Origin: Accumulibacter sp.
Lineage (GTDB): Bacteria > Pseudomonadota > Gammaproteobacteria > Burkholderiales > Rhodocyclaceae
Direction: 5' to 3'
Length of the DNA stretch: 12,365 nt
Assembly: GCA_003538495.1 (NCBI GenBank)
Contig: DPSD01000585.1
Location: 1,735 to 14,099, forward strand
Under the pieces are notes generated by a model. The model was not told where the DNA came from, ran no database searches, and was given only the letters and a program-made list of their open reading frames with translations. The translations under genes were made by a program, and so were the position numbers. How positions within the stretch are numbered: the stretch's first letter is position 1; each line of letters starts with the position of its first letter. This document shows positions 1 through 12,365 of this stretch, piece after piece.

Positions 1-1267
1 GGATCGCCGGCAGCGATTCGTCGCAGGTACACAACTGGCCGGCGAAGCGCTTGACGATGAAGCCGGCCGCGCGGCTGGCGATGTTCACGAACTTGCCGAC
101 CAGATCCGAATTGACCCGGGCGATGAAGTCGTCAAGGTTGAGGTCGATGTCCTCCATCGAGCTCGACAGCTTGGCCGCGTAGTAGTAGCGCAGCCACTCC
201 GGGTCGAGGCCCTGTGCCAGATAGCTCTCGGCGGTGATGAAAGTGCCCCGCGACTTCGACATCTTGGCGCCATCGACGGTCAGGAAGCCGTGCGCGAAGA
301 TCTTGCTTGGCGTCCGATAACCGGCGTGTTGCAGCTCGGCCGGCCAGAACAGCGCGTGGAAGTAGAGGATGTCCTTACCGATGAAGTGGTACAGCTCGGT
401 GGTCGAATCCGGGCCCCAGTATTCGTCGAAATCAAGGCCTTCGCGGGCGCACAGATTCTTGAACGCTCCCATGTAGCCGATCGGCGCATCGAGCCAGACG
501 TAGAAGTACTTGCCCGGCGCACCGGGAATCTCGAAGCCGAAATACGGCGCTTCGCGCGAGATGTCCCAGTCCGTCAGCTTGCTCTCGCCGACTTCTCCCA
601 GCCACTCCTGCAGCTTGTTCGCTGCCTCGCTCTGCAGGCGGCCTTCGCCCTGCGTCCAGCGCCGCAGAAAGCCCTGGCAGCGGCGGTCGGAGAGTCGGAA
701 GAAGTAGTGCTCGGATTGCCGCAACTCTGGCTTGGCGCCGGAAACGACCGAATAGGGGTTGTGCAGCTCGTTGGCGGTGTACGCCGCGCCGCAGTTCTCG
801 CAGTTGTCGCCGTACTGGTCGCGCGCGCCACACTTCGGGCAGTCGCCCTTGATGTAGCGATCGGGCAGAAACATCCGCTTGAGCGGGTCGTAATACTGCT
901 CGATGACGCGCGTCTCGATCAGCCCGGCGGCCTGCAGGCGGGCGTAGATTTCGTTGGCGCAGGCGCGGGTTTCCTCGGAATGCGTGCTGTAGTAGTTGTC
1001 GAAGCCGACGTGAAAGCCGGCGAAGTCGCGGGTGTGCTCGGCATGAACGCGCTCGATCAGCGCCTCCGGCGTGATCCCTTCCTTCTCCGCGCGCAGCATG
1101 ACTGGCGTGCCGTGGGTGTCGTCGGCACAAACGTACCAGCACTGGTGGCCGCGAATCTTCTGAAAACGAACCCAGATGTCGGTCTGGATGTATTCGACCA
1201 GATGACCAAGATGGATCGCGCCGTTGGCATACGGCAGGGCGGAGGTGACGAGGATCTTGCGGCTCAT
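1..1267 (-). CDS. metG: Methionyl-tRNA synthetase, N-terminal 422 residues (runs off the left edge)
   Basis: MetG charges tRNA-Met with methionine in the cytoplasm, using ATP. The reading frame starts at the ATG at 1267 with [16 protein letters not shown] and stays open to the window edge, so the 3' part of the gene is missing. Visible class I signatures are the HIGH-type motif HLGH at residues 19-22 and the KMSKS loop at about 335-339. A zinc knuckle has Cys143, Cys146, Cys156 and Cys159 in the CPKC...CENC arrangement, with the same spacing as E. coli MetG. Full-length bacterial MetG of this type is about 670-720 residues, so the anticodon-binding and C-terminal dimerisation parts lie outside. 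The gene follows the polysaccharide genes on the same strand after 143 bases, with its own candidate -10 element, so it is probably a separate housekeeping transcription unit. No strong Shine-Dalgarno precedes the ATG. Confidence 0.97.
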
Positions 1268-1296
1268 GGCGCTTGGCGCAATCGGGGCAAAGCGGC

Positions 1297-1302
1297 ATTC
1301 TA
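1297..1302 (-). promoter_or_regulatory. Candidate -10 element upstream of metG
   Basis: On the minus strand the sequence GATAGAATGCC occurs 30 bases before the metG ATG and contains TAGAAT, a 5-of-6 match to the sigma-70 -10 consensus. Transcription would begin near 1290, giving a leader of about 23 bases. I see no convincing -35 hexamer at the expected distance, so this is a suggestion from one element and its position. Confidence 0.4.
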
Positions 1303-1335
1303 TCAAAGGGGGCGCAGGCTGGGCCGGGATTGGCG

Positions 1336-1365
1336 AGGAAAGCAGCGGCCGTGTGCGGCGCTGCT
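1336..1365 (-). terminator. Possible weak terminator hairpin between capD and metG
   Basis: On the minus strand AGCAGCGCC, a six-base loop (GCACAC) and GGCCGCTGCT can form a GC-rich stem of about nine pairs with one bulged G. It begins 46 bases after the capD stop codon and is followed by TTTCCTC. The T run is short, so this is at best a weak intrinsic terminator. Its position, between the end of the polysaccharide unit and the candidate metG promoter, fits that role. Confidence 0.3.
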
Positions 1366-1410
1366 GCCCCGCTGGCGGCGGTCGCGGTCTCGCCGCGCTG
1401 GCGCCGACTG

Positions 1411-3333
1411 CTACGTCTGCATGGCGCCAGCAGCAGTCTGGGGGCTGCAGTCCGGGTCGCCGGCGACGCGCATCAGCATGGCCCGCACGGCTTCTTCGTC
1501 GCGGTCGCGCAGCGCTGCACGCAATTGTTCGATGAGCGCGGCCAGGGGCTCCGGATCGAGCGACGGCTCGTCGGCTTTCATGATCTTGGGGTGACTGGTG
1601 GCGACCGCGTTGCTGCTGGCGATCAACAGCTCCTCGTAGAGTTTTTCACCAGGGCGCAGGCCGGTGATGATGATCTCGATATCGCCTTCGGGGTTGTCGT
1701 CGTCGCGAACCGTATAACCAGCCAGACGAATCATGTTGCGCGCCAGGTCGACGATCCGTACCGGGTCGCCCATGTCGAGCAGAAAGATTTCGCCACCGCT
1801 GGCCAGACTGCCGGTCTGGATGACCAATTGCACCGCTTCATGGATGGACATGAAGTAGCGGGTGACGTCGGCATGGGTGACGGTCACCGGGCCACTCTGG
1901 GCGATCTGTTCCTTGAACAGTGGAATGACCGAGCCCGAAGACCCCAGGACGTTGCCGAAGCGTACGGCGCAGAATCGCTGTCCGGTCCCGCGCGCCGCCG
2001 CCTGCCTGGCGAACCCCTGGACAACGAGTTCCGCCCAGCGCTTGCTGGCGCCCATGATGTTGGTCGGGCGAACGGCCTTGTCGGTGGAGATCAGTACAAA
2101 GGTTTCGACTCCGGCGTCAAATGCCGCGCTGGCCAGCGTCAGGGTGCCCAGGACGTTGTTGCACGCTCCGGCCAGGACGTTGGCCTCGACCATTGGCACG
2201 TGCTTGTGCGCGGCAGCGTGGTAAATGGTCGCGATCCGGTGCCTGACCAGCAAACGCGATACCAGACCGGCGTCGCCCACCGAGCCAAGACAGGGCACCA
2301 ACTCGCAACCCAGAACGCCTTGCAGGACGCGGTGGATCTGGTACAGCGCATGCTCGCTGGCTTCGAGCAGGATTACGCTGCGCGGTTGCAGGGCGGCGAT
2401 CTGCCGACACAGCTCGGAGCCAATCGAGCCGCCGGCGCCGGTGACCAGCACCGCCTTGCCGGTGATGCAGCGCCCGAGCAGGGTTGGGTCAGCCGCCACC
2501 GGGTCGCGACCGAGCAGGTCACCGATGTCGACTTCGCGGACCATGTTGACCAGGTGCCGGCCGTTGGCAATATCGGTCAGCGCCGGCAGGATGCGCACCC
2601 GCACCGGGTGGTGCTCGAGGAAGGCCACCACTTCACGGCGGCGGGCGCTGGACACAGACGGCAGGGTGACGATCACGTCGTGGATATCGAAGCGTTCAAG
2701 CAGCGTCGACAGGTGCGCCGGCGGATAGACCCGCAAGCCACCGACGTCCTTGCCGTGCAGCGCCTGGTCGTCGTCGAGGAAGCCCGCCGGGAACAGCTCC
2801 CGCCCGCGGCGCAAGGACTCCGCCAGTTGCCGCCCGGCGTCGCCGGCGCCGTAGATCAGCACCTGTTTGCCCGAAAAGCGGCTGCGCGTAGGCAACCACA
2901 GCAGCCAGCGCGCGCCGAAGCGTGAACCCGCCACCAGCGCGAAGCCGATCAGCCAGTAGAGCAGCGGCACCGCCCGCGGTACGCCCTGCAGGCCGGTCAT
3001 CTGGGTCATGAAGGCCAATACCGCCCACAGCAGCGCGGCCAGCGACATGCCCTTGAGCACCGACCACAGCGCCTGCTCGCCGAGGTAGCGGATCACCGAG
3101 CGGTAGAGTCCCAGCTTGAGGAAGACCGGCATCGCCAGGATCGGTGCGACGACCATCAACAGGACTTGCGAACGGTTCGGGACGAACCATTCGCCCAGGC
3201 GCACGGCGTACGCCGCCCAGACGGCAAAGGCCAGAACCAGCGCATCCGCCAGCAGCATCAGGCCCTGCTTGGTCGGACGGGTCATCAGCACCAGGTAACT
3301 GGAGATGCCCGCGGGAAGGCGCCAGCGGGTCAT
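1411..3333 (-). CDS. Membrane-anchored nucleotide-sugar 4,6-dehydratase, CapD/WbpM/FlaA1 family
   Basis: This 640-residue protein matches the full-length two-domain WbpM/PglF family, which converts UDP-GlcNAc to a UDP-4-keto-6-deoxy sugar for O-antigen or capsule synthesis at the inner membrane. The N-terminal 145 residues carry about four hydrophobic segments. A first Rossmann-like domain has GAGDAG at 162-167. The catalytic SDR domain has TGAGGSIG at 298-305, STDK at 416-419 and MGASK at 427-431. Methionine replaces the usual SDR tyrosine, as reported for WbpM-type dehydratases (S-M-K rather than S-Y-K). [12 protein letters not shown] at 558-569 is a family hallmark. The chosen ATG overlaps the stop of the upstream SDR gene as ATGA and has GAGGA upstream. 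A second ATG at 3285 (MTRPTKQG) would give a more conventional N-terminus. It is probably cotranscribed with the SDR and GT2 genes. Confidence 0.93.
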
Positions 3334-4226
3334 CTCGCCAGGTCCTCGCTGGTCGGAGCGAACACCCTCGGCGAAAACCCGAAATCGCGAACCGCGTCGC
3401 TGTGATCGAACACCAGGTCGCTGTTCATGCGCTCGGCCATTGCCGTCGACCAGTGCCGGTAGCGCGGCAGGCAGCGTATCAGGGCAACGGCACCGCCGAA
3501 AGCCCATAAAGGTACCCGCAGCAGGTGCGGCTGGCGGCCGAGCGCGGCAAAGACCTGCTCGACCATCTGCCGGTAGGCGACGGTACTGCCACCGGAAATG
3601 TTGTACGCGCGATTCGCGGTCGCCGGCGCGCGCAAGGCCGCCAGGCAGGCGGTGGCGACGTCCTGCGCGTGAATCGGCTGGCGCAGACCGTGTGCGCTGC
3701 CGAGCAGCGGAAAGAAACCGAAGCGGCGTATGATGCGGGCGATTTCGCAGAGGTTCTTGTCGCGACCGAGGCCATGGATCAGCGTCGGGCGCAGGATCAC
3801 CCACTCCACTCCTCGACTCTCCGCCCAGGTCTGAAAGCGGCTTTCCGCGTCAGCCAGGCGACGCGCCACGGCGTTCTCGTGCGGGTCGGCCGAGTCCTGC
3901 TTGGTGAAGCGACTGGTCGAAGACAGCGCCAGCACGCGCCGTGCCTGATGCGTTTCCAGGAGCGCGAAATGCTCTGGCAGCACCCAGACTGGCGCGGCAC
4001 AGATCCAGCAGCGCGGGCTGCCGCCGTCCTCCGGGTTCGAGGCGTGCGATGAGCGGGAGCGCGGGTCCGGCAATTGGCGCCATTCGACAGCTCCGCCCGG
4101 TGGATCGACGCGCGGGCTCCGCGAGTACGCCTGCGCCTGCCGACCCGCTTGTGCCAGTTGCGCCAACAGGCATTCGCCAACCGGGCTGGTCGCGCCGAGG
4201 ACGCCGACGGGCGGTTCAGCCGGCAC
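3330..4226 (-). CDS. Atypical extended SDR, NAD-dependent epimerase/dehydratase-like protein
   Basis: This 298-residue protein has an N-terminal dinucleotide-binding motif, GVLGATSPVG, at residues 8-17, and later extended-SDR features: ILRPTLIHGLGRDKN, a QPIHAQDVA segment and YNISGG. It belongs with NAD(P)-binding sugar epimerases and dehydratases, but the substrate cannot be read from sequence. The classical catalytic YxxxK is not visible: the serine segment LSSTSRFTK has no tyrosine in the expected place, so it may be an altered epimerase or a reductase-like member. The GTG start is chosen because GGGGA lies six bases upstream and because the recognisable fold begins there; longer frames to 4448 read the GT2 gene out of frame. 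It overlaps the GT2 gene by 11 bases and the capD gene by 4, so translational coupling is likely. Confidence 0.85.
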   Translation of the reverse strand: MPAEPPVGVLGATSPVGECLLAQLAQAGRQAQAYSRSPRVDPPGGAVEWRQLPDPRSRSSHASNPEDGGSPRCWICAAPVWVLPEHFALLETHQARRVLALSSTSRFTKQDSADPHENAVARRLADAESRFQTWAESRGVEWVILRPTLIHGLGRDKNLCEIARIIRRFGFFPLLGSAHGLRQPIHAQDVATACLAALRAPATANRAYNISGGSTVAYRQMVEQVFAALGRQPHLLRVPLWAFGGAVALIRCLPRYRHWSTAMAERMNSDLVFDHSDAVRDFGFSPRVFAPTSEDLAR

Positions 4227-5136
4227 GGGCCATCCCCAGCTTCCGGCAGCCGTGGCGAACGCTGTAGTAACCGGCAAGCATGGCGAATCGCAGCCACACC
4301 CCCGCCACCACCAGCCACCACAGCAGGCCGGGGTAGCGCTGACGGTAGAACTTGCGATAGAAGCGCAGCATGCCGTGGTGCTTGTGCCACTCGACGAAGA
4401 TCGGTCGGCTGCGACTGCAGCCACCCCACACGTGCAGCACGCGCGCACCGGGAACGAACATCACCCGCCAGCCCTTCTGCGAGAATCGCATGCACCAGTC
4501 GAGATCCTCGCAGTGGAGGAAATAGGCCTCGTCCCACAGCCCGACGTCGTCGATGGCTGCGCGCTTGACCAGCATGCAGGCACCGGAGATCGCTTCGACC
4601 GCAACCGCTTTCGCAGGGAGTGGCGATTGGTGCAGGAGGAAGTCGGGAAACAGGCGCGGCGAGACCCGTTGCAGCCAGGACAAGCCAAAGGCGCGAAAGA
4701 AGGCGCGTCCGGGCGTCGGGAACGTCCGCCGGCCGCCCGGTTGCTCCGAGCCATCGGGATTGCAGAGCATGCCGCCGACCATGCCGACCCGCTCGTCGTC
4801 GTCAAAGACCGCGAGCATCCGCGACAAGGCCTGTGAATCGAGTGTCGCGTCCGGGTTGAAGAACAGCAGGTAGTCCGCCGTGGACGCCAGAGCGCCGATG
4901 TTGCACGCCGCCGAAAAACCGAGATTGCGGTCGTTACGAATGATCTTCAGCGTGCCGGCCGCGACGGACAGGCCTTCCAGACGCGCGACGCTGTCATCGG
5001 ACGAGCGATTATCGACCACGATAATCTGGTGAACCTCATCTATCAGCAGCGAGCGAACGCAGTCGACCAGCAGGCCGCCAGCGTTGTAATTGACAACAAT
5101 CACGTCGACAGCGGCGGCTCGTCCTGGAGAACTCAC
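4216..5136 (-). CDS. Glycosyltransferase family 2, rhamnosyltransferase-like
   Basis: This 306-residue GT-A enzyme should transfer a nucleotide-activated sugar to a growing lipid-linked glycan on the cytoplasmic face of the inner membrane. Motifs in order are VNYN at 15-18, VDNRSSD at 41-47, RNLGFSAACN at 70-79, the metal/nucleotide site FNPDA at 93-97, SGACMLVKR at 184-192 and the acceptor-site acidic motif HCEDLDW at 208-214. The pattern resembles WbbL-type rhamnosyltransferases, although donor specificity cannot be assigned. The C-terminal 40 residues include an amphipathic or hydrophobic stretch (LLWWLVVAGVWLRFAML) that may associate with the membrane. The start is a GTG with a weak AGGT upstream; no better start exists before the first motif. 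It is the first gene of the second unit, behind a 274-base gap with a candidate promoter. Confidence 0.92.
   Translation of the reverse strand: MSSPGRAAAVDVIVVNYNAGGLLVDCVRSLLIDEVHQIIVVDNRSSDDSVARLEGLSVAAGTLKIIRNDRNLGFSAACNIGALASTADYLLFFNPDATLDSQALSRMLAVFDDDERVGMVGGMLCNPDGSEQPGGRRTFPTPGRAFFRAFGLSWLQRVSPRLFPDFLLHQSPLPAKAVAVEAISGACMLVKRAAIDDVGLWDEAYFLHCEDLDWCMRFSQKGWRVMFVPGARVLHVWGGCSRSRPIFVEWHKHHGMLRFYRKFYRQRYPGLLWWLVVAGVWLRFAMLAGYYSVRHGCRKLGMARAG
4233..4237 (-). promoter_or_regulatory. Ribosome binding site that fixes the SDR start
   Basis: GGGGA on the minus strand sits inside the end of the GT2 gene, six bases before the GTG at 4226. It is the best Shine-Dalgarno near any candidate start for the SDR gene and supports the GTG start with an 11-base overlap. 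Confidence 0.55.
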
Positions 5137-5313
5137 GTTGGAATGACCTGCGGGAATTTGGAGAACCTCTGAACAGGCTTCGGCCTATGATGCGTCGGAT
5201 CAAGCATTGCTATCTAGGTGCTACATGAACTGCACGGTCCGCCAGGTGCGCTGGCTGGTGGGCCTTGTTCACGCGGTGCGGGCGCTCCCCGGTAGCACCG
5301 GATGCCGCCGCCC

Positions 5314-5343
5314 ATTGTAGGGCGCCGTGCCTTGCCCCGTAAA
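5314..5343 (-). promoter_or_regulatory. Candidate sigma-70-like promoter for the GT2-SDR-capD unit
   Basis: In the gap between the GT-B and GT2 genes the minus strand carries TTTACG (5338-5343; 4 of 6 to TTGACA), an 18-base spacer, and TACAAT (5314-5319; 5 of 6 to TATAAT). Initiation near 5307 would give an unusually long leader of about 170 bases before the GTG at 5136. The rest of the gap holds a small CCGGT-GCT-ACCGG hairpin (5289-5301), but I recognise no riboswitch or RNA gene. The assignment rests on consensus match and position only. Confidence 0.45.
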
Positions 5344-5363
5344 CATCGCTTGCTTGCCCTCTG

Positions 5364-5409
5364 GCGCATTGATCAACTCAGCGGCCGTTACCAGCACGGA
5401 TCGATGCGC
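5364..5409 (-). repeat. Imperfect inverted repeat just after the GT-B stop codon
   Basis: The arms gcgcattgatc (5364-5374) and gatcgatgcgc (5399-5409) are complementary at 10 of 11 positions and are separated by 24 bases. The repeat begins directly after the TAA of the GT-B gene. No T-run follows on the minus strand and the loop is large, so it is not a canonical intrinsic terminator. It could act as a 3'-end hairpin or a protein-binding site. Confidence 0.4.
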
Positions 5410-5410
5410 T

Positions 5411-6862
5411 TTACCACCAGGATCTCAAGCGCCTGAATCCCCGATAAGCCGCCCGTGCAAGCACCCGCCCCAGGCTCAGCTGACGTTCCATCCATGATGC
5501 GAATTCGTCCGCCTCGACGACGAAATCGTCCGATGCATCGTCAGGCACCGCTTGCTCGCCGGCCGTTCCGTTCAGGATCGCCTGCAGCCGTTCGGGACGA
5601 TGGAAGGTTTCGTACTGCCGGCGGCCAGCCCGGCCGGCCTGCACCAGGTCGCTGACCGTTACGGAACCGCAGTAAGCGAGCAAGTCCTCGGGGAAGCGCC
5701 AGCTGAAAGCCCCACGATAGGCCAGCCCGATCCCGCTCACAACCTTTGAAAAGATGTGCCGATGCAGGGCCAGGGGAATCCCTGCGCCCATCACTTCGAT
5801 CAGCGTCAAGCCGCCGCCGTAGGGAAACGACGCTACGTAGAGATCAACGCGAAATTCGTGCAGCGCTTTCCAGACGCTGGGAACCCAGGGCGTGTAGATG
5901 AAGCGTTCAGCCGGAATTCCCTGGCGCTTCAAGCCACGCCGGATCCTGAACAGCGCCCAGGGGGTCAGGCGACCGATATGGATATGTTTGCCGCCGGTCG
6001 CTTTCAGAAGCTCGGGAACGAGTTCGAGATAACTCACGAAATACGGCACTTCAACCTTGTTCGAGCGGGCCGCCGTGCAGGTGGTGAGCCGGCCAGCGGG
6101 CATGAACGGCCAGTCGCTCGGGCGATCTCCCTTGTCGTCGGCGGTCAGCGGGATGTAGGTGTTGTCGATGCCCAGCACCTCGCGGCAGGTGTGATAACCC
6201 ATCGGGTGCAGGTCGATGTGCTGCAGGTGCGACAAGTGGACGCCCAGGCACAATTGATGGTCGCCGTGATGATAAAAGCTTCCGTCAATCTTCATCGCCG
6301 GCTGCACCGCGGCGACCGCAACGCTGTCCTGATGGTGGTTGAACAGGTAGACCTTGTGCGGTCTGGTCTTCAGCAGGCGGCTTTGCAACCAGGTCAGGCG
6401 CTGCTGGAAATTGCCCGCGCCGGCGCCTTCAAGAAGCACTTTGGAGTGCTTGCCGACACCGTTCAGCAGATAGTCGATATCCGACTTCCCGCCAAGATCG
6501 GTGGCCAGGATCAGATGTCGCGCTTCGGGTTGCGCGGCGATGAAGTCCTCGATGACGCGGGAGTGACCACCCGACTTCTGCAACCTGGTGACGATGTACA
6601 CGACCAGCCGCGACTCGGGCGGGGGATCAGCGGCGTCGCCCGGAGGCGCGCCGATCGCCTCCAGGTTGGCTCTTCCGATTTTCTGGCAGAGCTCGTCGAG
6701 CTTCCTCGACCCATAGACCTGGGAAGTGCACAGCGGCTCGGTAATGATCCGCTCGACAAAGTCGTGGATGGCACGCAGTGCGTGATCCAGTTCACCCTGA
6801 CCGACGGCGATCGCCAGCCGCTCGGTCAGGGAGTGCAGCGACTTGCAGGAATCACTGGCCAA
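5411..6862 (-). CDS. GT-B fold (GT4-like) glycosyltransferase
   Basis: The 483-residue protein reads like a retaining GT-B transferase. The N-terminal region contains VVYIVTRLQKSGGHSRVI (about residues 87-104), the type of donor/acceptor loop seen at the start of GT4 Rossmann domains. The C-terminal region has ASFPYGGGLTLIEVMGAGIP (about 344-363), the E-x7-E-like nucleotide-sugar site. A His-rich segment, YHHGDHQLCLG, at about 197-207 is distinctive and I cannot place it in a named subfamily. The start is uncertain: TTG at 6862 has GGGGA five bases upstream and overlaps the aminotransferase gene by 11 bases, whereas a TTG at 6916 would add 18 unconvincing residues. It is the last gene of the first polysaccharide unit. 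The donor could be the dTDP-aminodideoxy sugar made next door, but that is inference. Confidence 0.82.
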   Translation of the reverse strand: MASDSCKSLHSLTERLAIAVGQGELDHALRAIHDFVERIITEPLCTSQVYGSRKLDELCQKIGRANLEAIGAPPGDAADPPPESRLVVYIVTRLQKSGGHSRVIEDFIAAQPEARHLILATDLGGKSDIDYLLNGVGKHSKVLLEGAGAGNFQQRLTWLQSRLLKTRPHKVYLFNHHQDSVAVAAVQPAMKIDGSFYHHGDHQLCLGVHLSHLQHIDLHPMGYHTCREVLGIDNTYIPLTADDKGDRPSDWPFMPAGRLTTCTAARSNKVEVPYFVSYLELVPELLKATGGKHIHIGRLTPWALFRIRRGLKRQGIPAERFIYTPWVPSVWKALHEFRVDLYVASFPYGGGLTLIEVMGAGIPLALHRHIFSKVVSGIGLAYRGAFSWRFPEDLLAYCGSVTVSDLVQAGRAGRRQYETFHRPERLQAILNGTAGEQAVPDDASDDFVVEADEFASWMERQLSLGRVLARAAYRGFRRLRSWW

Positions 6863-7973
6863 GCATTTCCCCGTCGACAGACGCGAACTTGCGTATCGCG
6901 TCGGCCACGCGCTCAACGTCGGCGAAGGTCATCAGGGGATCCATTGGCAGGCTGAGGACTTCATCGGCCAGCGTCTCGCTGACCGGCAATTGCCGTCCGG
7001 CGAATTCCGGATAGCACCCTTGCCGATGTGGAGGAACCGGATAGTGGATCACCGTCGCTATCCCTTGCTGCTCCAGGTTCGCTTTCAGGGCGTCCCGATT
7101 CTTGCTGCGGATGACATAGAGGTGCCAGACGGGGTCGGCATCGTCGGGTACGGCGGGCAAGGAGATCGCGGTGTTCGCCAGAAGCTGCGAATAGCGGCCT
7201 GCGATCTCGCCGCGACGGGTGTTCCAGCCATCGAGAACAGCCAGTTTCGCCCGCAGAAACGCGGCCTGCAGTTCGTCCAGGCGACTGTTGTAGCCGGCGA
7301 GATCATGCTGGTACTTCACTTTCGAGCCGTAGTTGCGCAACTGCCTGACCTGTTCGGCTATTGCGTCGTCGTCGGTCAGCACGGCGCCACCGTCACCGAG
7401 CGCGCCCAGGTTCTTGCCGGGATAGAAGCTGGTCGCCGCCGCAGCGCCAAGCGAGCCGGCGCGGCGCCCCTTGTAGCGGGCACCTTGCGCCTGCGCGGCA
7501 TCCTCGATCACGATCAGGCCGTGTCTGGCGGCCAGTTCGTTGATTGGATCCATATTCGCCGGCTGCCCGTACAGGTGGACCGGAATGATCGCCCGAGTGC
7601 GCTTGCTGAGCGCTGCGGCAATCAGCCCGGGGTCGATGTTGTGCGTTTCGATGTTCGGCTCGACCGGCACCGGCGTCGCGCCGCACTCGGTCACTGCCAG
7701 CCAGGTGGCGATGAAGGTGTTGGAGGGAACGATGACTTCGTCACCGGGCCCGATGCCGTATGCCCGCAGCAAGAGATGGAGCGCTTCGAGCCCGTTGCCG
7801 ACGCCGATGCAGTGCCGTACCTCGCAGTACCGCGCGAACTCGGCCTCGAAGGCTTCGAGTTCCGGGCCCATGATGAACCAGCCCGAGTCGACGACCCGTC
7901 GATAAGCCTCGTCGAGAGGGTCACGAATCGACCGATGCAGGCGCCCCAGGTCCAGAAACGGAAGCAATCTCAT
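6852..7973 (-). CDS. DegT/DnrJ/EryC1/StrS-family PLP aminotransferase for a dTDP-3-amino sugar (FdtB/QdtB type)
   Basis: This 373-residue sugar aminotransferase should move an amino group, usually from glutamate, onto the 3-keto group of a dTDP-6-deoxyhexos-3-ulose. Visible signatures are the N-terminal PFLDLGRL, the PLP-phosphate region GNGLEALHLLLRA at 59-71, PSNTFIAT at 83-90, EDAAQAQG at 157-164 (Asp158 and Gln161 contacting PLP) and SFYPGKNLGALGDGG at 182-196, with Lys187 as the Schiff-base lysine. The C-terminal VIHYPVPPH (308-316) is typical of the family. Length is normal. The ATG overlaps the ketoisomerase stop as ATGA and has GAGGA seven bases upstream. Adjacency to FdtA/QdtA indicates a 3-amino product; Fuc3N and Qui3N cannot be separated by eye. 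Confidence 0.93.
   Translation of the reverse strand: MRLLPFLDLGRLHRSIRDPLDEAYRRVVDSGWFIMGPELEAFEAEFARYCEVRHCIGVGNGLEALHLLLRAYGIGPGDEVIVPSNTFIATWLAVTECGATPVPVEPNIETHNIDPGLIAAALSKRTRAIIPVHLYGQPANMDPINELAARHGLIVIEDAAQAQGARYKGRRAGSLGAAAATSFYPGKNLGALGDGGAVLTDDDAIAEQVRQLRNYGSKVKYQHDLAGYNSRLDELQAAFLRAKLAVLDGWNTRRGEIAGRYSQLLANTAISLPAVPDDADPVWHLYVIRSKNRDALKANLEQQGIATVIHYPVPPHRQGCYPEFAGRQLPVSETLADEVLSLPMDPLMTFADVERVADAIRKFASVDGEMLGQ
6868..6872 (-). promoter_or_regulatory. Ribosome binding site favouring the TTG start of the GT-B gene
   Basis: GGGGA on the minus strand lies five bases before TTG at 6862, within the last codons of the aminotransferase gene. The arrangement (11-base overlap, GGGGA, non-ATG start) mirrors that of the SDR gene at 4226, which makes this start more believable than the upstream TTG. 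Confidence 0.45.
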
Positions 7974-8383
7974 TTGCCTATCCTCTGCGCGTCGGCGACG
8001 AATTCGCCGTAGTCGCGGTAGTAATCGAACTCGTCGTAATAGTTCGAGGCCAGAACCATGCACACCGCACCCGATGAAAAATTATCGAGTTCGCGCCAGA
8101 TCATCGGGCAGATATAGAGACCGTAATAGCTGCGATTCATGTGTACGGTCTTTTTCGCGCGGCCATCGTCAAGATGAATGTCAAATGATCCGGACATGGC
8201 GATGATCAGCTGGTGAAGAGCCTTGTGCGCGTGTCCGCCACGCTCGGCACCACCCGGAACGTCGTACAGATAGTAAACCCGGCGAATGTCAAAAGGGATG
8301 TGGCGCCCGGCCTCTACGAAGGTCAGGTTGCCGCGCGGATCGTTGATCCGCGGCAGGTCAATCGTCTTGCAACTCTCGATCAC
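7970..8383 (-). CDS. dTDP-4-keto-6-deoxyglucose 3,4-ketoisomerase, FdtA/QdtA (WxcM-like cupin)
   Basis: The 137-residue cupin isomerises dTDP-4-keto-6-deoxy-D-glucose to the 3-keto isomer, the branch point towards dTDP-Fuc3NAc (FdtA) or dTDP-Qui3NAc (QdtA). The family signatures RRVYYLYDVPGG (34-45) and RGGHAHKALHQ (48-58) are present; His51 and His53 correspond to the conserved catalytic histidine pair. Length fits the single-domain family. The gene starts at GTG with GGAG (8391-8394) upstream, and its first four bases overlap the acyltransferase stop as GTGA. By hand count 8041-8220 is 91 of 180 G+C, about 51%, lower than metG or capD, which hints that this sugar cassette was acquired separately. 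RmlA and RmlB, which make its substrate, are not in the window. Confidence 0.93.
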   Translation of the reverse strand: MIESCKTIDLPRINDPRGNLTFVEAGRHIPFDIRRVYYLYDVPGGAERGGHAHKALHQLIIAMSGSFDIHLDDGRAKKTVHMNRSYYGLYICPMIWRELDNFSSGAVCMVLASNYYDEFDYYRDYGEFVADAQRIGK

Positions 8384-9135
8384 GGTTGTTCTCCATTGTC
8401 CGCTGACCAGCCGGCGGCGACAGTCGCCGGATAACCGCGCGTGAAGTGGCGCGTCCAGGGGTACGCCGCGCGCCCGGAGTCATCCCGCAACTTGATGCCA
8501 TGGGTACTGCCGATCACCCGCGCTGGCACTCCGGCAACGATCATGCTCGGCGGAACGTCGCGGCTGACGCATGCCTGTGCGGCAACCAGCGAGTGATGGC
8601 CGACGGTGACCCCCGGCAGCACCACCGACGCCGCCGAAATGCTCGCATAGTCCTCGACAGTACAGCCGATCAGGACATTGCTCGGTGGAGTCGGGTCGTT
8701 GGTGAGTACCACGTAGGGCAGGATCCAGACGAAATTGCCAATCGTGGTCTTTTTCCCGACAAAGACATTGGACTGAAAGCGAACGTAATCGCCAATCAGG
8801 CAATCACCCTGGATCTCGCTCAGGGTTCCGATCTGAAACCCGGGACCAGCGATCGTTTTTTCGCGCACGGTGACGTGATGACCGGTAGTCAGACCGGGGC
8901 CGAATGACGACGACTCGTAGAACACCGAGTGCGATCGAACCAGCGAGTCATCGGCGATCATCAGCGGGCTGCCATCGCCTAGCGCTGTCGCGATTCCCAG
9001 TTCACAGTAGGCGCCGATCCTGACCCGGTTGCCGATCACCACATTGTCGTGAATGATCGAGAACGGGCCGATCTCGACGTCGTCGCCAAGCCTCGCTCTT
9101 GGCGAAATATGGGCAGATGGGTGCACGCCGGTCAT
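8380..9135 (-). CDS. Left-handed beta-helix acyltransferase (probable sugar N-acetyltransferase)
   Basis: This 251-residue protein is built mostly of hexapeptide repeats, beginning VHPSAHISPRARLGDDVEIG and running to about residue 215. The last coils (SVVLPGVTVGHHSLVAA, then VSRDVPPSMIVAGVPARVIG) form the characteristic end of the parallel beta-helix. Such enzymes work as trimers with acetyl-CoA or a similar donor. Standing immediately before the ketoisomerase and aminotransferase, it is the natural candidate for the third step, N-acylation of the dTDP-3-amino sugar, as done by FdtC or QdtC. O-acetylation of the glycan is an alternative. The ATG overlaps the GT61 stop as ATGA. The C-terminal 35 residues lie outside the helix and are unassigned. 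Confidence 0.9.
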   Translation of the reverse strand: MTGVHPSAHISPRARLGDDVEIGPFSIIHDNVVIGNRVRIGAYCELGIATALGDGSPLMIADDSLVRSHSVFYESSSFGPGLTTGHHVTVREKTIAGPGFQIGTLSEIQGDCLIGDYVRFQSNVFVGKKTTIGNFVWILPYVVLTNDPTPPSNVLIGCTVEDYASISAASVVLPGVTVGHHSLVAAQACVSRDVPPSMIVAGVPARVIGSTHGIKLRDDSGRAAYPWTRHFTRGYPATVAAGWSADNGEQP

Positions 9136-10604
9136 CTTTGTTCCAGGGCCTCCAATAAATCGGCAACGTCCGCTCGGGCGGCCGTGAAATTGCCGTGTAT
9201 GCCAAGCTTGCTGACTTCGACGAGATTGCCGAGGACGTAGCTGACGCCGATCTGGAGGGGCGTCAGCATGTCGCACCAGTAGCGATAGATCATTTCTTCG
9301 TGCTTGGCCATGAATACCCCGACCTGCGTTCCGGGTTGGCAGAAAATGGCATTGGCCAACGCGGCTCCGGTAGGCGAAACGACTATCCTGGCGTTGGCGA
9401 ACAAGCGCACCTGCTGCATGAACGACAAGGTCTCGGGCTGGATGATCGCGTAGCCGCTGGCGACCATCAGCCTTTCGATCTCGGCGCTGTTGGCGAGCAT
9501 TCTCGGACCCGAAGCGCGCCGAATGAATATTTTTTCCGGCCACGCTCCGCCTGCTGCTTTTCCCAGGTGCGTGGTCAGGCAGTGTCGGAGTCTCTCGAAA
9601 GCCGGCGGACTGAAGACGCCATGCGAATGTCCGGAAAGCCGGTTGCTGCGCCGTCCGAACGGCACATAGCCGGCCGCCGCGGTGACATGGAGTTGCTTGA
9701 CGGTCAGCGCCCGGCCAACGCCCAGGGTGATGATTTCACGGTCAGTTCCGGCCACCAGCAGCAAGGACTCCATGATATTGGCGTGCAGCCCGCTATTGAC
9801 CACCAGGGGCACATCCTTGAAGCGCTCGTCGGTGCAGAACAGAGCAATCCGCGGCAAGACCTCGGTCAGCCAATGAGCATAATTGCCGGCGCAGGCGTCG
9901 ACAAAGGTGGCGGCCAGCGGAACGACTTCCGGTTCCTCATCATTCAACAGCCATCGGATGCGCCGACGCCGCGGAGAAATCAGGGTGCGACCGTGCAGTT
10001 CTTCGCTGGTGTAATCGCGAGCGAAATCGTACAAGTCATGGCAGACAACGTCGTCGCGACCGACCAGGACGAGATTGGTGCCTCCGTAGGTGGTGGCGTC
10101 GTCGAGCGTCGCGACGATGATCTCGGGGAACTCGTACTGCGCATGCGGCGAAGCCAGGAACGCGCGATCGTCAGCCGGAAAGACGCTCGGCTCGGGTGTT
10201 TCAACGCGGCTTGCGGGGACCAGTTGGTCGGTACGAATCGCCATTTTCGTCGCGAACGCGCGCAGCGGCGTGAGCCGCCGCCAACGTCTTGCTTGCCCCC
10301 GCTTCCCGCGGGTGGCAAGCTGGTTGACATAGATCGGATAGCCGTTACGCCACAGCCATTGAACAGCCCAGCGAACGGCGGCGTAAGGCTTCAGATGTCC
10401 GATGTAGAGCCGTCCGAGCCATGACTCCCGCAACCGGGCGAAGTTGTCGGGGCGCTTGCCGGGGACCGCTTCGACATTCCTGATCCGGCCGGACGAGGCA
10501 CCGGGCGACGCCACTTCGTCCTCGGCAGGTGCGGGAATCCATGCGGGCGCGAGTGCTGCAGCCTCGCCATCACCTGAATCAGCTTGCGACGGGAGTAATG
10601 CCAT
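9132..10604 (-). CDS. Glycosyltransferase family 61 (DUF563)-like, capsular polysaccharide type
   Basis: The 490-residue protein carries hallmarks of the GT61/DUF563 family: NYAHWLTEVLPRIALF at 241-256, KIFIRRASGPRML at 358-370 after a variable stretch, and the nucleotide-sugar-site-like SPTGAALANAIFCQPG at 410-425. Family members add xylose or other sugars, and bacterial ones sit in capsule and O-antigen loci. The first 120 residues, rich in Ala/Pro and then basic, lack recognisable family features. The ATG at 10604 is preceded by an in-frame TGA two codons upstream, so it is the earliest ATG possible; the Shine-Dalgarno is weak. The gene follows the ABC ATPase after 98 bases in which I see no other gene, and overlaps the acyltransferase gene by 4 bases. 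Confidence 0.85.
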   Translation of the reverse strand: MALLPSQADSGDGEAAALAPAWIPAPAEDEVASPGASSGRIRNVEAVPGKRPDNFARLRESWLGRLYIGHLKPYAAVRWAVQWLWRNGYPIYVNQLATRGKRGQARRWRRLTPLRAFATKMAIRTDQLVPASRVETPEPSVFPADDRAFLASPHAQYEFPEIIVATLDDATTYGGTNLVLVGRDDVVCHDLYDFARDYTSEELHGRTLISPRRRRIRWLLNDEEPEVVPLAATFVDACAGNYAHWLTEVLPRIALFCTDERFKDVPLVVNSGLHANIMESLLLVAGTDREIITLGVGRALTVKQLHVTAAAGYVPFGRRSNRLSGHSHGVFSPPAFERLRHCLTTHLGKAAGGAWPEKIFIRRASGPRMLANSAEIERLMVASGYAIIQPETLSFMQQVRLFANARIVVSPTGAALANAIFCQPGTQVGVFMAKHEEMIYRYWCDMLTPLQIGVSYVLGNLVEVSKLGIHGNFTAARADVADLLEALEQR

Positions 10605-10702
10605 GGTTCATTCCAGCGCTGCGGGTCAAAACGCCGCGCTGGTGCGTCGCGGGCGCAGCAGCGCGTCTACGGCGACCAGCAGCAGTCCGGGTTCGTCGGC
10701 AC

Positions 10703-11365
10703 CTATCCATCGAGCTTGCCGGCCAGGTAACGTTCGACGATCTCTTCCGGCGGGCCATCGGCCACCAGCTTGCCGTGATCCATCCACAGGACCCGGTTGC
10801 AGAGTGATTTCACCAGCAGATGGTCGTGTGACACCATGATCATGATGTTCGCCTTGTCGATCAGGTCGTGCATTCTGGCCTTTGCCTTGGCCATGAACGC
10901 GGCGTCTCCGCCAGCAAAGATCTCGTCCAGCACCAGGATGTCCGGGTGCATCGCCGTCGCCAGAGAGAAGGCCAGGCGGGTATACATCCCGGTCGAGTAG
11001 TACTTGACCGGGGTATCGATGAACTCTTCCAGGCCGGCAAAGGTTATTACTTCCTGTTCGATGGCATTCAGCTGCTGCTTGCTGTAGCCAAGAATCGCAC
11101 CGTTGAGGTAGATGTTTTCCCGGCCGGTGAACTCGGGATGAAAACCGGCGCCAATTTCGAGCAGCGGAGCGATTCGCCCAGCAACCGAAATCTTCCCGTC
11201 CGACGACTCATAAACCCGGCACAAGGCTTTCAGCAAGGTGCTCTTGCCGGCGCCGGAATGGCCGGTCAGGAAGACCAGTTCGCCCTGCTCGATGGCGAGG
11301 CTGACGCCGGAGAGGGCTTCGTGCCCGCCGGGATAGCGCTTGGTGACCTGGTTGAAGCTGATCAT
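10703..11365 (-). CDS. Chimeric ABC ATPase: FtsE-like N-terminus joined in frame to a Wzt/KpsT-type polysaccharide exporter ATPase
   Basis: The 220-residue frame has all ABC motifs: Walker A GHSGAGKST at 35-43, signature YSTGM at 123-127, Walker B ILVLDE at 143-148 and H-loop His180. The first 40-49 residues (MISFNQVTKRYPGGHEALSG, then LVFLTGHSGAGKST) are those of the cell-division ATPase FtsE, in FtsE's usual place 12 bases after ftsY. From residue 50 on the protein is the polysaccharide-export type, with RIAPLLEIGAGFHPEFTGREN at 64-84 and YLNGAILG, as in Wzt, KpsT and TagH. The usual extended N-terminus of those proteins is missing, and so is the Wzm permease gene that normally precedes wzt. 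Most likely this is an artificial or recombinational join at Walker A. If the fusion is real, its partner permease is unknown. Confidence 0.85.
   Translation of the reverse strand: MISFNQVTKRYPGGHEALSGVSLAIEQGELVFLTGHSGAGKSTLLKALCRVYESSDGKISVAGRIAPLLEIGAGFHPEFTGRENIYLNGAILGYSKQQLNAIEQEVITFAGLEEFIDTPVKYYSTGMYTRLAFSLATAMHPDILVLDEIFAGGDAAFMAKAKARMHDLIDKANIMIMVSHDHLLVKSLCNRVLWMDHGKLVADGPPEEIVERYLAGKLDG
11216..11251. other. FtsE|Wzt junction at Walker A
   Basis: FtsE-specific residues (HSGAG) end near codon 39-41 and Wzt-specific residues (RVYESSDGKI) begin at codon 50. The switch lies within or just after the Walker A codons, which are conserved between ABC ATPases and could serve as a short stretch of shared sequence for assembly collapse or recombination. 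The reading frame is preserved. Confidence 0.7.
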
Positions 11366-11377
11366 TCGGTGGCGGTC

Positions 11378-12004
11378 CTAAACAGGAAATATGGCCTCGA
11401 CGAATTCGCGTGCATCGAAGGGTCGCAGGTCGTCCACGGTCTCACCGACCCCGATGTAACGTACCGGAATCGGTCTGGCCTGGGCGATGGCGGCGATGGC
11501 GCCGCCCTTGGCGGTACCGTCGAGCTTGGTCAGCGCCAGGCCCGTCACGCCGAGTGCATCGTCGAAGGCCTTGACCTGGGTGACGGCGTTCTGGCCGGTA
11601 TTGGCATCGAGCACCAGCAGCACTTCGTGCGGCGCACCGGGGATGGCCTTCTCGATCACGCGCTTGACCTTCCGGATCTCTTCCATCAGATGGAGCTGCG
11701 TCGGCAGGCGGCCGGCGGTGTCGGCCAGCACGACATCGATGTTGCGCGCGCGGGCAGCCTGGATGGCGTCGAAGATCACTGCGGCGGAATCGCCTTTTTC
11801 CTGGCTTACCACGGTCACATTGTTGCGCTCCCCCCAGACCTGCAACTGTTCGCGTGCCGCCGCGCGGAAGGTGTCGCCGGCGGCCAACATCACCTTTTTG
11901 CCATCTTGGGTGAAATCATGCGCCAGCTTGGCCGTAGTCGTGGTTTTTCCGGCGCCGTTGACGCCCGCCACCAGAATGACGAAAGGCTTGGCGGTTATCG
12001 CCAC
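11378..12004 (-). CDS. ftsY: FtsY, signal recognition particle receptor, GTPase domain only (5' truncated)
   Basis: FtsY docks SRP-ribosome complexes at the inner membrane. This open part of 208 residues is the SRP-family GTPase domain: P-loop GVNGAGKTTTT at 14-24, DTFRAAAREQL at 44-54, DTAGRLPT at 94-101, TKLDGTAKGG at 158-167 and the typical C-terminus RPFDAREFVEAIF. A normal FtsY has about 300 residues in the NG region plus an acidic N-terminal part; the N domain and everything before it are absent because FtsZ-derived sequence takes over near 11989-12010. The GTG at 12004 is therefore only the first available start codon, not the true one. The stop is 12 bases before the ftsE-like ATG, matching the common ftsY-ftsE-ftsX order. 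Confidence 0.93.
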   Translation of the reverse strand: MAITAKPFVILVAGVNGAGKTTTTAKLAHDFTQDGKKVMLAAGDTFRAAAREQLQVWGERNNVTVVSQEKGDSAAVIFDAIQAARARNIDVVLADTAGRLPTQLHLMEEIRKVKRVIEKAIPGAPHEVLLVLDANTGQNAVTQVKAFDDALGVTGLALTKLDGTAKGGAIAAIAQARPIPVRYIGVGETVDDLRPFDAREFVEAIFPV

Positions 12005-12365
12005 GGGTTTCGGCCGAACCCATTACGGCTGCACCGGCATTCCACATTACAGTGCGCACATCCTGAAAATCAACGTTTACATAACCAGCCAGCGTAATAA
12101 TTTCGGCAATCCCCTTTGCGGCCGTGGTTAACACAGTATCCGCTTCGGCAAACGCCTGACCAATAGAGAGGTTTCCATAAATCTCGCGCAGTTTATCATT
12201 GAGTATAACCAGCACTGTATCGCAGCTTGAACGAAATGCTTCAATACCCAAATCTGCCTGGTTCATTTTCTTTTTACCCTCAAAAGAAAAAGGTGCGGTT
12301 ACAATCCCTACGGTAAGGATGTCCATGTCTTTCGCAATCTTAGCGATTACGGAACGCCTGGATAC
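11916..12365 (-). CDS. ftsZ: FtsZ internal fragment of Bacteroidetes type, fused out of frame to ftsY
   Basis: This frame is open from the right edge and encodes a middle piece of the tubulin-like division GTPase FtsZ. Recognisable stretches are VIAKIAKDMDILTVGIVT, PFSFEGKKKMNQADLGIEA, NDKLREIYGNLS, VLTTAAKGIAEIIT, GYVNVDFQDVRTVM and NAGAAVMGSAE. The NDKLREIYGNL form is typical of Bacteroidetes rather than proteobacterial FtsZ. Homology ends around 11991; the remaining codons down to the stop at 11916 read ftsY in a wrong frame. The first five codons at the edge (VSRRS) do not match the expected GTGAAP, so the extreme end is also suspect. G+C over 12061-12300 is 105 of 240 by hand count (44%), against well over 60% in the neighbouring ftsY. 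Both ends of the gene are missing. Confidence 0.88.
   Translation of the reverse strand, partial: VSRRSVIAKIAKDMDILTVGIVTAPFSFEGKKKMNQADLGIEAFRSSCDTVLVILNDKLREIYGNLSIGQAFAEADTVLTTAAKGIAEIITLAGYVNVDFQDVRTVMWNAGAAVMGSAETRGDNRQAFRHSGGGRQRRRKNHDYGQAGA
11989..12010. other. FtsZ|FtsY junction
   Basis: Bacteroidetes-type FtsZ reads up to GSAET or, at most, GDNR (codon ending 11991), while FtsY homology is clear from KPFVIL (codon starting 11989). The sequence between can be read in both frames, so the exact crossover may lie in a few bases of shared sequence. Base composition changes sharply here. Confidence 0.75.

Follow-up and report, generated by a model that had tools for sequence, protein, structure and literature searches.

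The FtsE-Wzt reading frame at 10703-11365 is, judging from sequence comparison, very probably (about 97%) part of a chimeric assembly at the right end of the window and not a real gene. The window is the whole stretch of DNA analysed, 12,365 nucleotides long. Its segments differ in parentage: neighbouring segments match different organisms best, and the switch points between them are sharp. That the contig might be chimeric at a conserved ABC motif had been proposed from the sequence-only reading, and this is borne out. The parents at this motif belong to two lineages and each gene is intact elsewhere; at least two further joins between organisms, one inside ftsY and one to the ftsZ of another phylum, lie within 0.8 kb of the first. 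The features are the following.

1-11228, unstranded: segment A, with a metG fragment, a cluster of polysaccharide genes and the 3' portion of wzt; of Accumulibacter type, as judged on metG and wzt only
10703-11254, minus strand: Wzt-like part of the reading frame, residues 38-220
11228-11254, minus strand: join 1, the GAGKSTLLK of Walker A, common to both parents
11229-11365, minus strand: FtsE-like part of the reading frame, residues 1-46
11229-11886, minus strand: segment B, the 3' part of ftsY and the start of ftsE
11887-11994, minus strand: segment C, start of the FtsY G-domain, 108 bp, with no source assigned; join 2 lies at 11886/11887, within ftsY
about 11991-11994: join 3, where the FtsY of segment C gives way to ftsZ
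11991-12350, minus strand: segment D, internal part of ftsZ, Cyclobacteriaceae-like (Bacteroidota)
12351-12365, minus strand: last 15 bases, with no match to FtsZ relatives

The reading frame and its two parents

The ORF list of the window confirms a reading frame of 220 amino acids on the minus strand (10703-11365), open across the join and with a complete Walker A motif. In the NCBIfam profile search, residues 1-64 match the FtsE model TIGR02673 with 97.6 bits, below the cut-off of 264.85. Residues 16-214 match the Wzt/RfbE model NF050108 with 200.8 bits, short of its cut-off of 400; NF050108 is a galactan-export model and only the nearest among the models listed. Neither of the two models reaches its curated full-length cut-off for this ORF. 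It had been claimed that the ORF starts as FtsE and turns into an exporter ATPase after Walker A, and both the profile matches and the separate best hits of the two halves agree with this.

Residues 1-46 are identical to the FtsE of L127, a stretch of genome G471 (46/46, alignment in register), and past residue 46 the same register gives agreement at 21 of 174 positions. For residues 38-220, with the register set on the Walker motif, the best hit is P0001 (180/183 identical), an intact Wzt of 247 amino acids with its own N-terminus; P0002, whose NCBI name is Candidatus Accumulibacter, is identical at 175/183. The first 37 residues agree with P0001 and with P0002 at 8/37 positions each, against 37/37 for the FtsE of L127. 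The two homologies thus overlap at GAGKSTLLK only, as the FtsE identity stops at residue 46 and the Wzt identity starts at residue 38. In the DNA, the identity to L127 runs from 11229 rightwards, and leftwards the sequence is unrelated to L127. The shared stretch at join 1 (11228-11254) is defined at the protein level, not in the bases of the parental wzt, and nearly coincides with the switch zone of 11216-11251 named earlier.

A protein search with the whole ORF found 7972 homologues, and the statistics given here rest on the best 120 of them. These are Wzt-like in their body. With 118 of the 120, the ORF shares 85-98% identity over residues 38-220 and 16-30% over residues 1-37; the other two are left out of the ranges as they are without the motif pattern used for the register. 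None of the best 120 starts like FtsE, and the YPGG of the FtsE start is not found in their first 20 residues. Relatives that share this N-terminus would have spoken against a chimera, as would one protein giving the best hit for both halves. Since the halves hit different proteins, the sequence chimera stands and a biological fusion is without support.

As an FtsE, the ORF has in its favour the identity of its first 46 residues and a position after ftsY as in the genome of L127; it differs in being without any FtsE beyond Walker A. As a Wzt, it is nearly identical to P0001 over residues 38-220, but the usual N-terminus is replaced, P0001 having about 64 residues before GAGKSTLLK. The surroundings are those of neither gene. 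According to Pfam, there is no ftsX in the window 3' of the ORF, where a GT61-family ORF (9132-10604) lies instead. No ABC permease was found among the window ORFs scanned with Pfam, and the side upstream of the ORF is foreign sequence. That the remainder of ftsE, ftsX, the N-terminus of wzt and wzm are missing is what would be expected of a false join, as had been suspected.

From join 1 to the tip of the contig

Segment B is an exact match of 658 bp to L127:5293-5950, and the match is lost if one base of the window is added at either side. G471 belongs to the same genus as G001, the carrier of a Thiobacillus MAG locus (Thiobacillus sp. 0-1251), which is 84% identical to window 11228-11994. 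The region of G471 is an ordinary operon with ftsY, ftsE and ftsX intact, and all three are above their NCBIfam cut-offs (FtsY 352.2 against 260.7, FtsE 274.8 against 264.85, FtsX 271.9 against 255). The earlier statement that the FtsE start stands in its right place after ftsY holds as far as the gene order goes, which is that of L127. The splice within this ftsY and the foreign ftsZ beyond it had been missed.

The identity to L127 breaks abruptly at 11887, beyond which the similarity to FtsY is scattered. Segment C is still FtsY, because the ORF of 208 amino acids at 11378-12004 passes the NCBIfam cut-off for FtsY (310.2 against 260.7). Among 398 Pseudomonadota genomes there is no close source for segment C, the best matches being 77% identical across 111 bp and 84% across 70 bp, and among the other loci compared the best is 83.6% over 73 bp. 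Over window 11378-12365, the ftsY adjoining the ORF is thus spliced from two FtsY genes and leads on, out of frame, into the ftsZ of segment D. We also considered that segments B and C are one FtsY of one species; this was rejected, as the identity to L127 is 100% over 658 bp and then scattered.

In segment D, residues 6-125 of the ftsZ product are identical to P0241 (120/120), and P0244 (Bacteroidetes bacterium CHB5) and P0248 (Cyclobacteriaceae) differ at one or two of the 120 residues. The GC content of 11991-12365 is 47.5%, that of segment A 63.4%. Join 3 is out of frame, with the FtsZ ORF (11916-12365) and the FtsY ORF (11378-12004) overlapping in different frames. The first five residues, VSRRS, differ at all five positions from P0241, P0244 and P0248, which have TGAAP, and the last 15 bases may be a fourth join or end sequence of poor quality.

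How the joins may have arisen

The final 1.1 kb of the contig contain three, perhaps four, breakpoints and involve three lineages or more, which argues for an artefact. We infer that assembly software or the library, rather than a living recombinant, made the joins. An Accumulibacter-type contig ending inside wzt would have been falsely extended across the bases of GAGKSTLLK into the ftsE-ftsY of a Thiobacillus-type bacterium. The next crossing would lead from conserved FtsY sequence into another FtsY, and the final one from this second FtsY into the Cyclobacteriaceae-like ftsZ of a third lineage. Join 1 is in frame, as a functional fusion would also be, but this does not indicate selection: if both sequences are crossed at identical codons of one motif, the frame is preserved. 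PMC8172020 reports for a mock community that chimeric sequence was always located at contig ends. The position at the contig end and the abrupt change of source organism at conserved sequence are common to the metagenome chimeras of that study and to the present contig; however, the chimeras described there join two highly similar genomes, while the present contig links different genera and phyla through short conserved motifs.

A real recombination in one organism, raised earlier as the other option, would have fused the ftsE start to wzt. The resulting ATPase, FtsE at its N-terminus and Wzt in its body, would be driven by the ftsY promoter. The ORF is indeed open, in frame and equipped with a complete Walker A. 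However, at least three independent events between different lineages, including two phyla, would be needed within 1.1 kb of the contig end, one of them truncating ftsY and another ftsZ, and segment B is identical to the genome of another genus over exactly the 658 bp that lie between two joins. No FtsE-Wzt fusion occurs among the 120 best homologues, and we find such a recombination extremely improbable. It calls for a betaproteobacterium that exports polysaccharide and whose wzt start gave way to an ftsY-ftsE fragment gained by horizontal transfer, so that an exporter ATPase with an FtsE head came under the control of ftsY. In our judgement such an organism has hardly any chance of being real; if it were, the fusion would couple a division ATPase with the export of polysaccharides. 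Both Wzt and FtsE belong to the ABC ATPases and have similar lengths, and an ordinary Wzt family member could be imagined that naturally carries an FtsE-like N-terminus. For the best 120 homologues this is refuted by the first 37 residues, with their low identity to 118 of these proteins and full identity to the FtsE of L127, and its probability is next to nil.

A chimeric contig end, our preferred reading, could also result from physical chimeras formed before sequencing, by ligation, PCR or template switching in whole-genome amplification, and not from the assembler. Template switching uses short overlaps, and at join 3 the homologies overlap by about 4 bases (11991-11994), which is short for an overlap-based assembly, although the overlap may be longer than this. 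Joins 1 and 2, on the other hand, fall within coding motifs of strong conservation, which is what assembly over shared k-mers would give, and a purely physical origin seems rather unlikely to us. The biological verdict is the same whether the assembler or the library made the joins. The case has value only as a caution: protein databases would take in the ORF as a novel ABC fusion, and a bin that receives the contig would acquire false synteny and false marker genes (ftsY, ftsZ).

The body of the contig

The metG fragment is found at 2-1306, and residues 14-435 of MetG are identical to P0121 at 418/422 positions and to Candidatus Accumulibacter sp. ACC003 (P0122) at 404/422. Of the 76 genomes in the genus to which G337 belongs, 72 show a match to metG at E<=1e-200, with a best DNA identity of 82-83%, and this genus is taken as Accumulibacter-like solely from the metG DNA match to the window. 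With 9132-12365 as the query, 70 of the 76 genomes match at E<=1e-15 with at most 77% identity, and among the matches listed all hits in the genus fall inside window 11228-11996. The metG-related genomes thus keep their own ftsY-ftsE (at most 77%), and as segment B is identical to G471, it is not theirs.

For the wzt DNA there is no close match in the 76 genomes, five of which give weak matches that do not exceed 83% over 74 bp, so it is the protein hits that assign wzt to Accumulibacter. Nor do 399 genomes of the order (best 74% over 286 bp) or four genomes of one family contain a close relative of this DNA.

Beside metG, at 1411-5136, lie polysaccharide genes: a PF02719-type nucleotide-sugar dehydratase, an ORF resembling an NAD epimerase, and a glycosyltransferase of family 2. 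Within the polysaccharide cluster, the ORF of 501 amino acids at 5411-6916 has no Pfam or NCBIfam match at E<=1e-3. At 6852-9543, a DegT/DnrJ aminotransferase (6852-8063), FdtA (PF05523, 7970-8383) and a hexapeptide transferase (8380-9543) adjoin each other, a trio which we take to resemble a dTDP-3-amino-3,6-dideoxyhexose pathway of the fdtA/fdtB/fdtC or qdt type.
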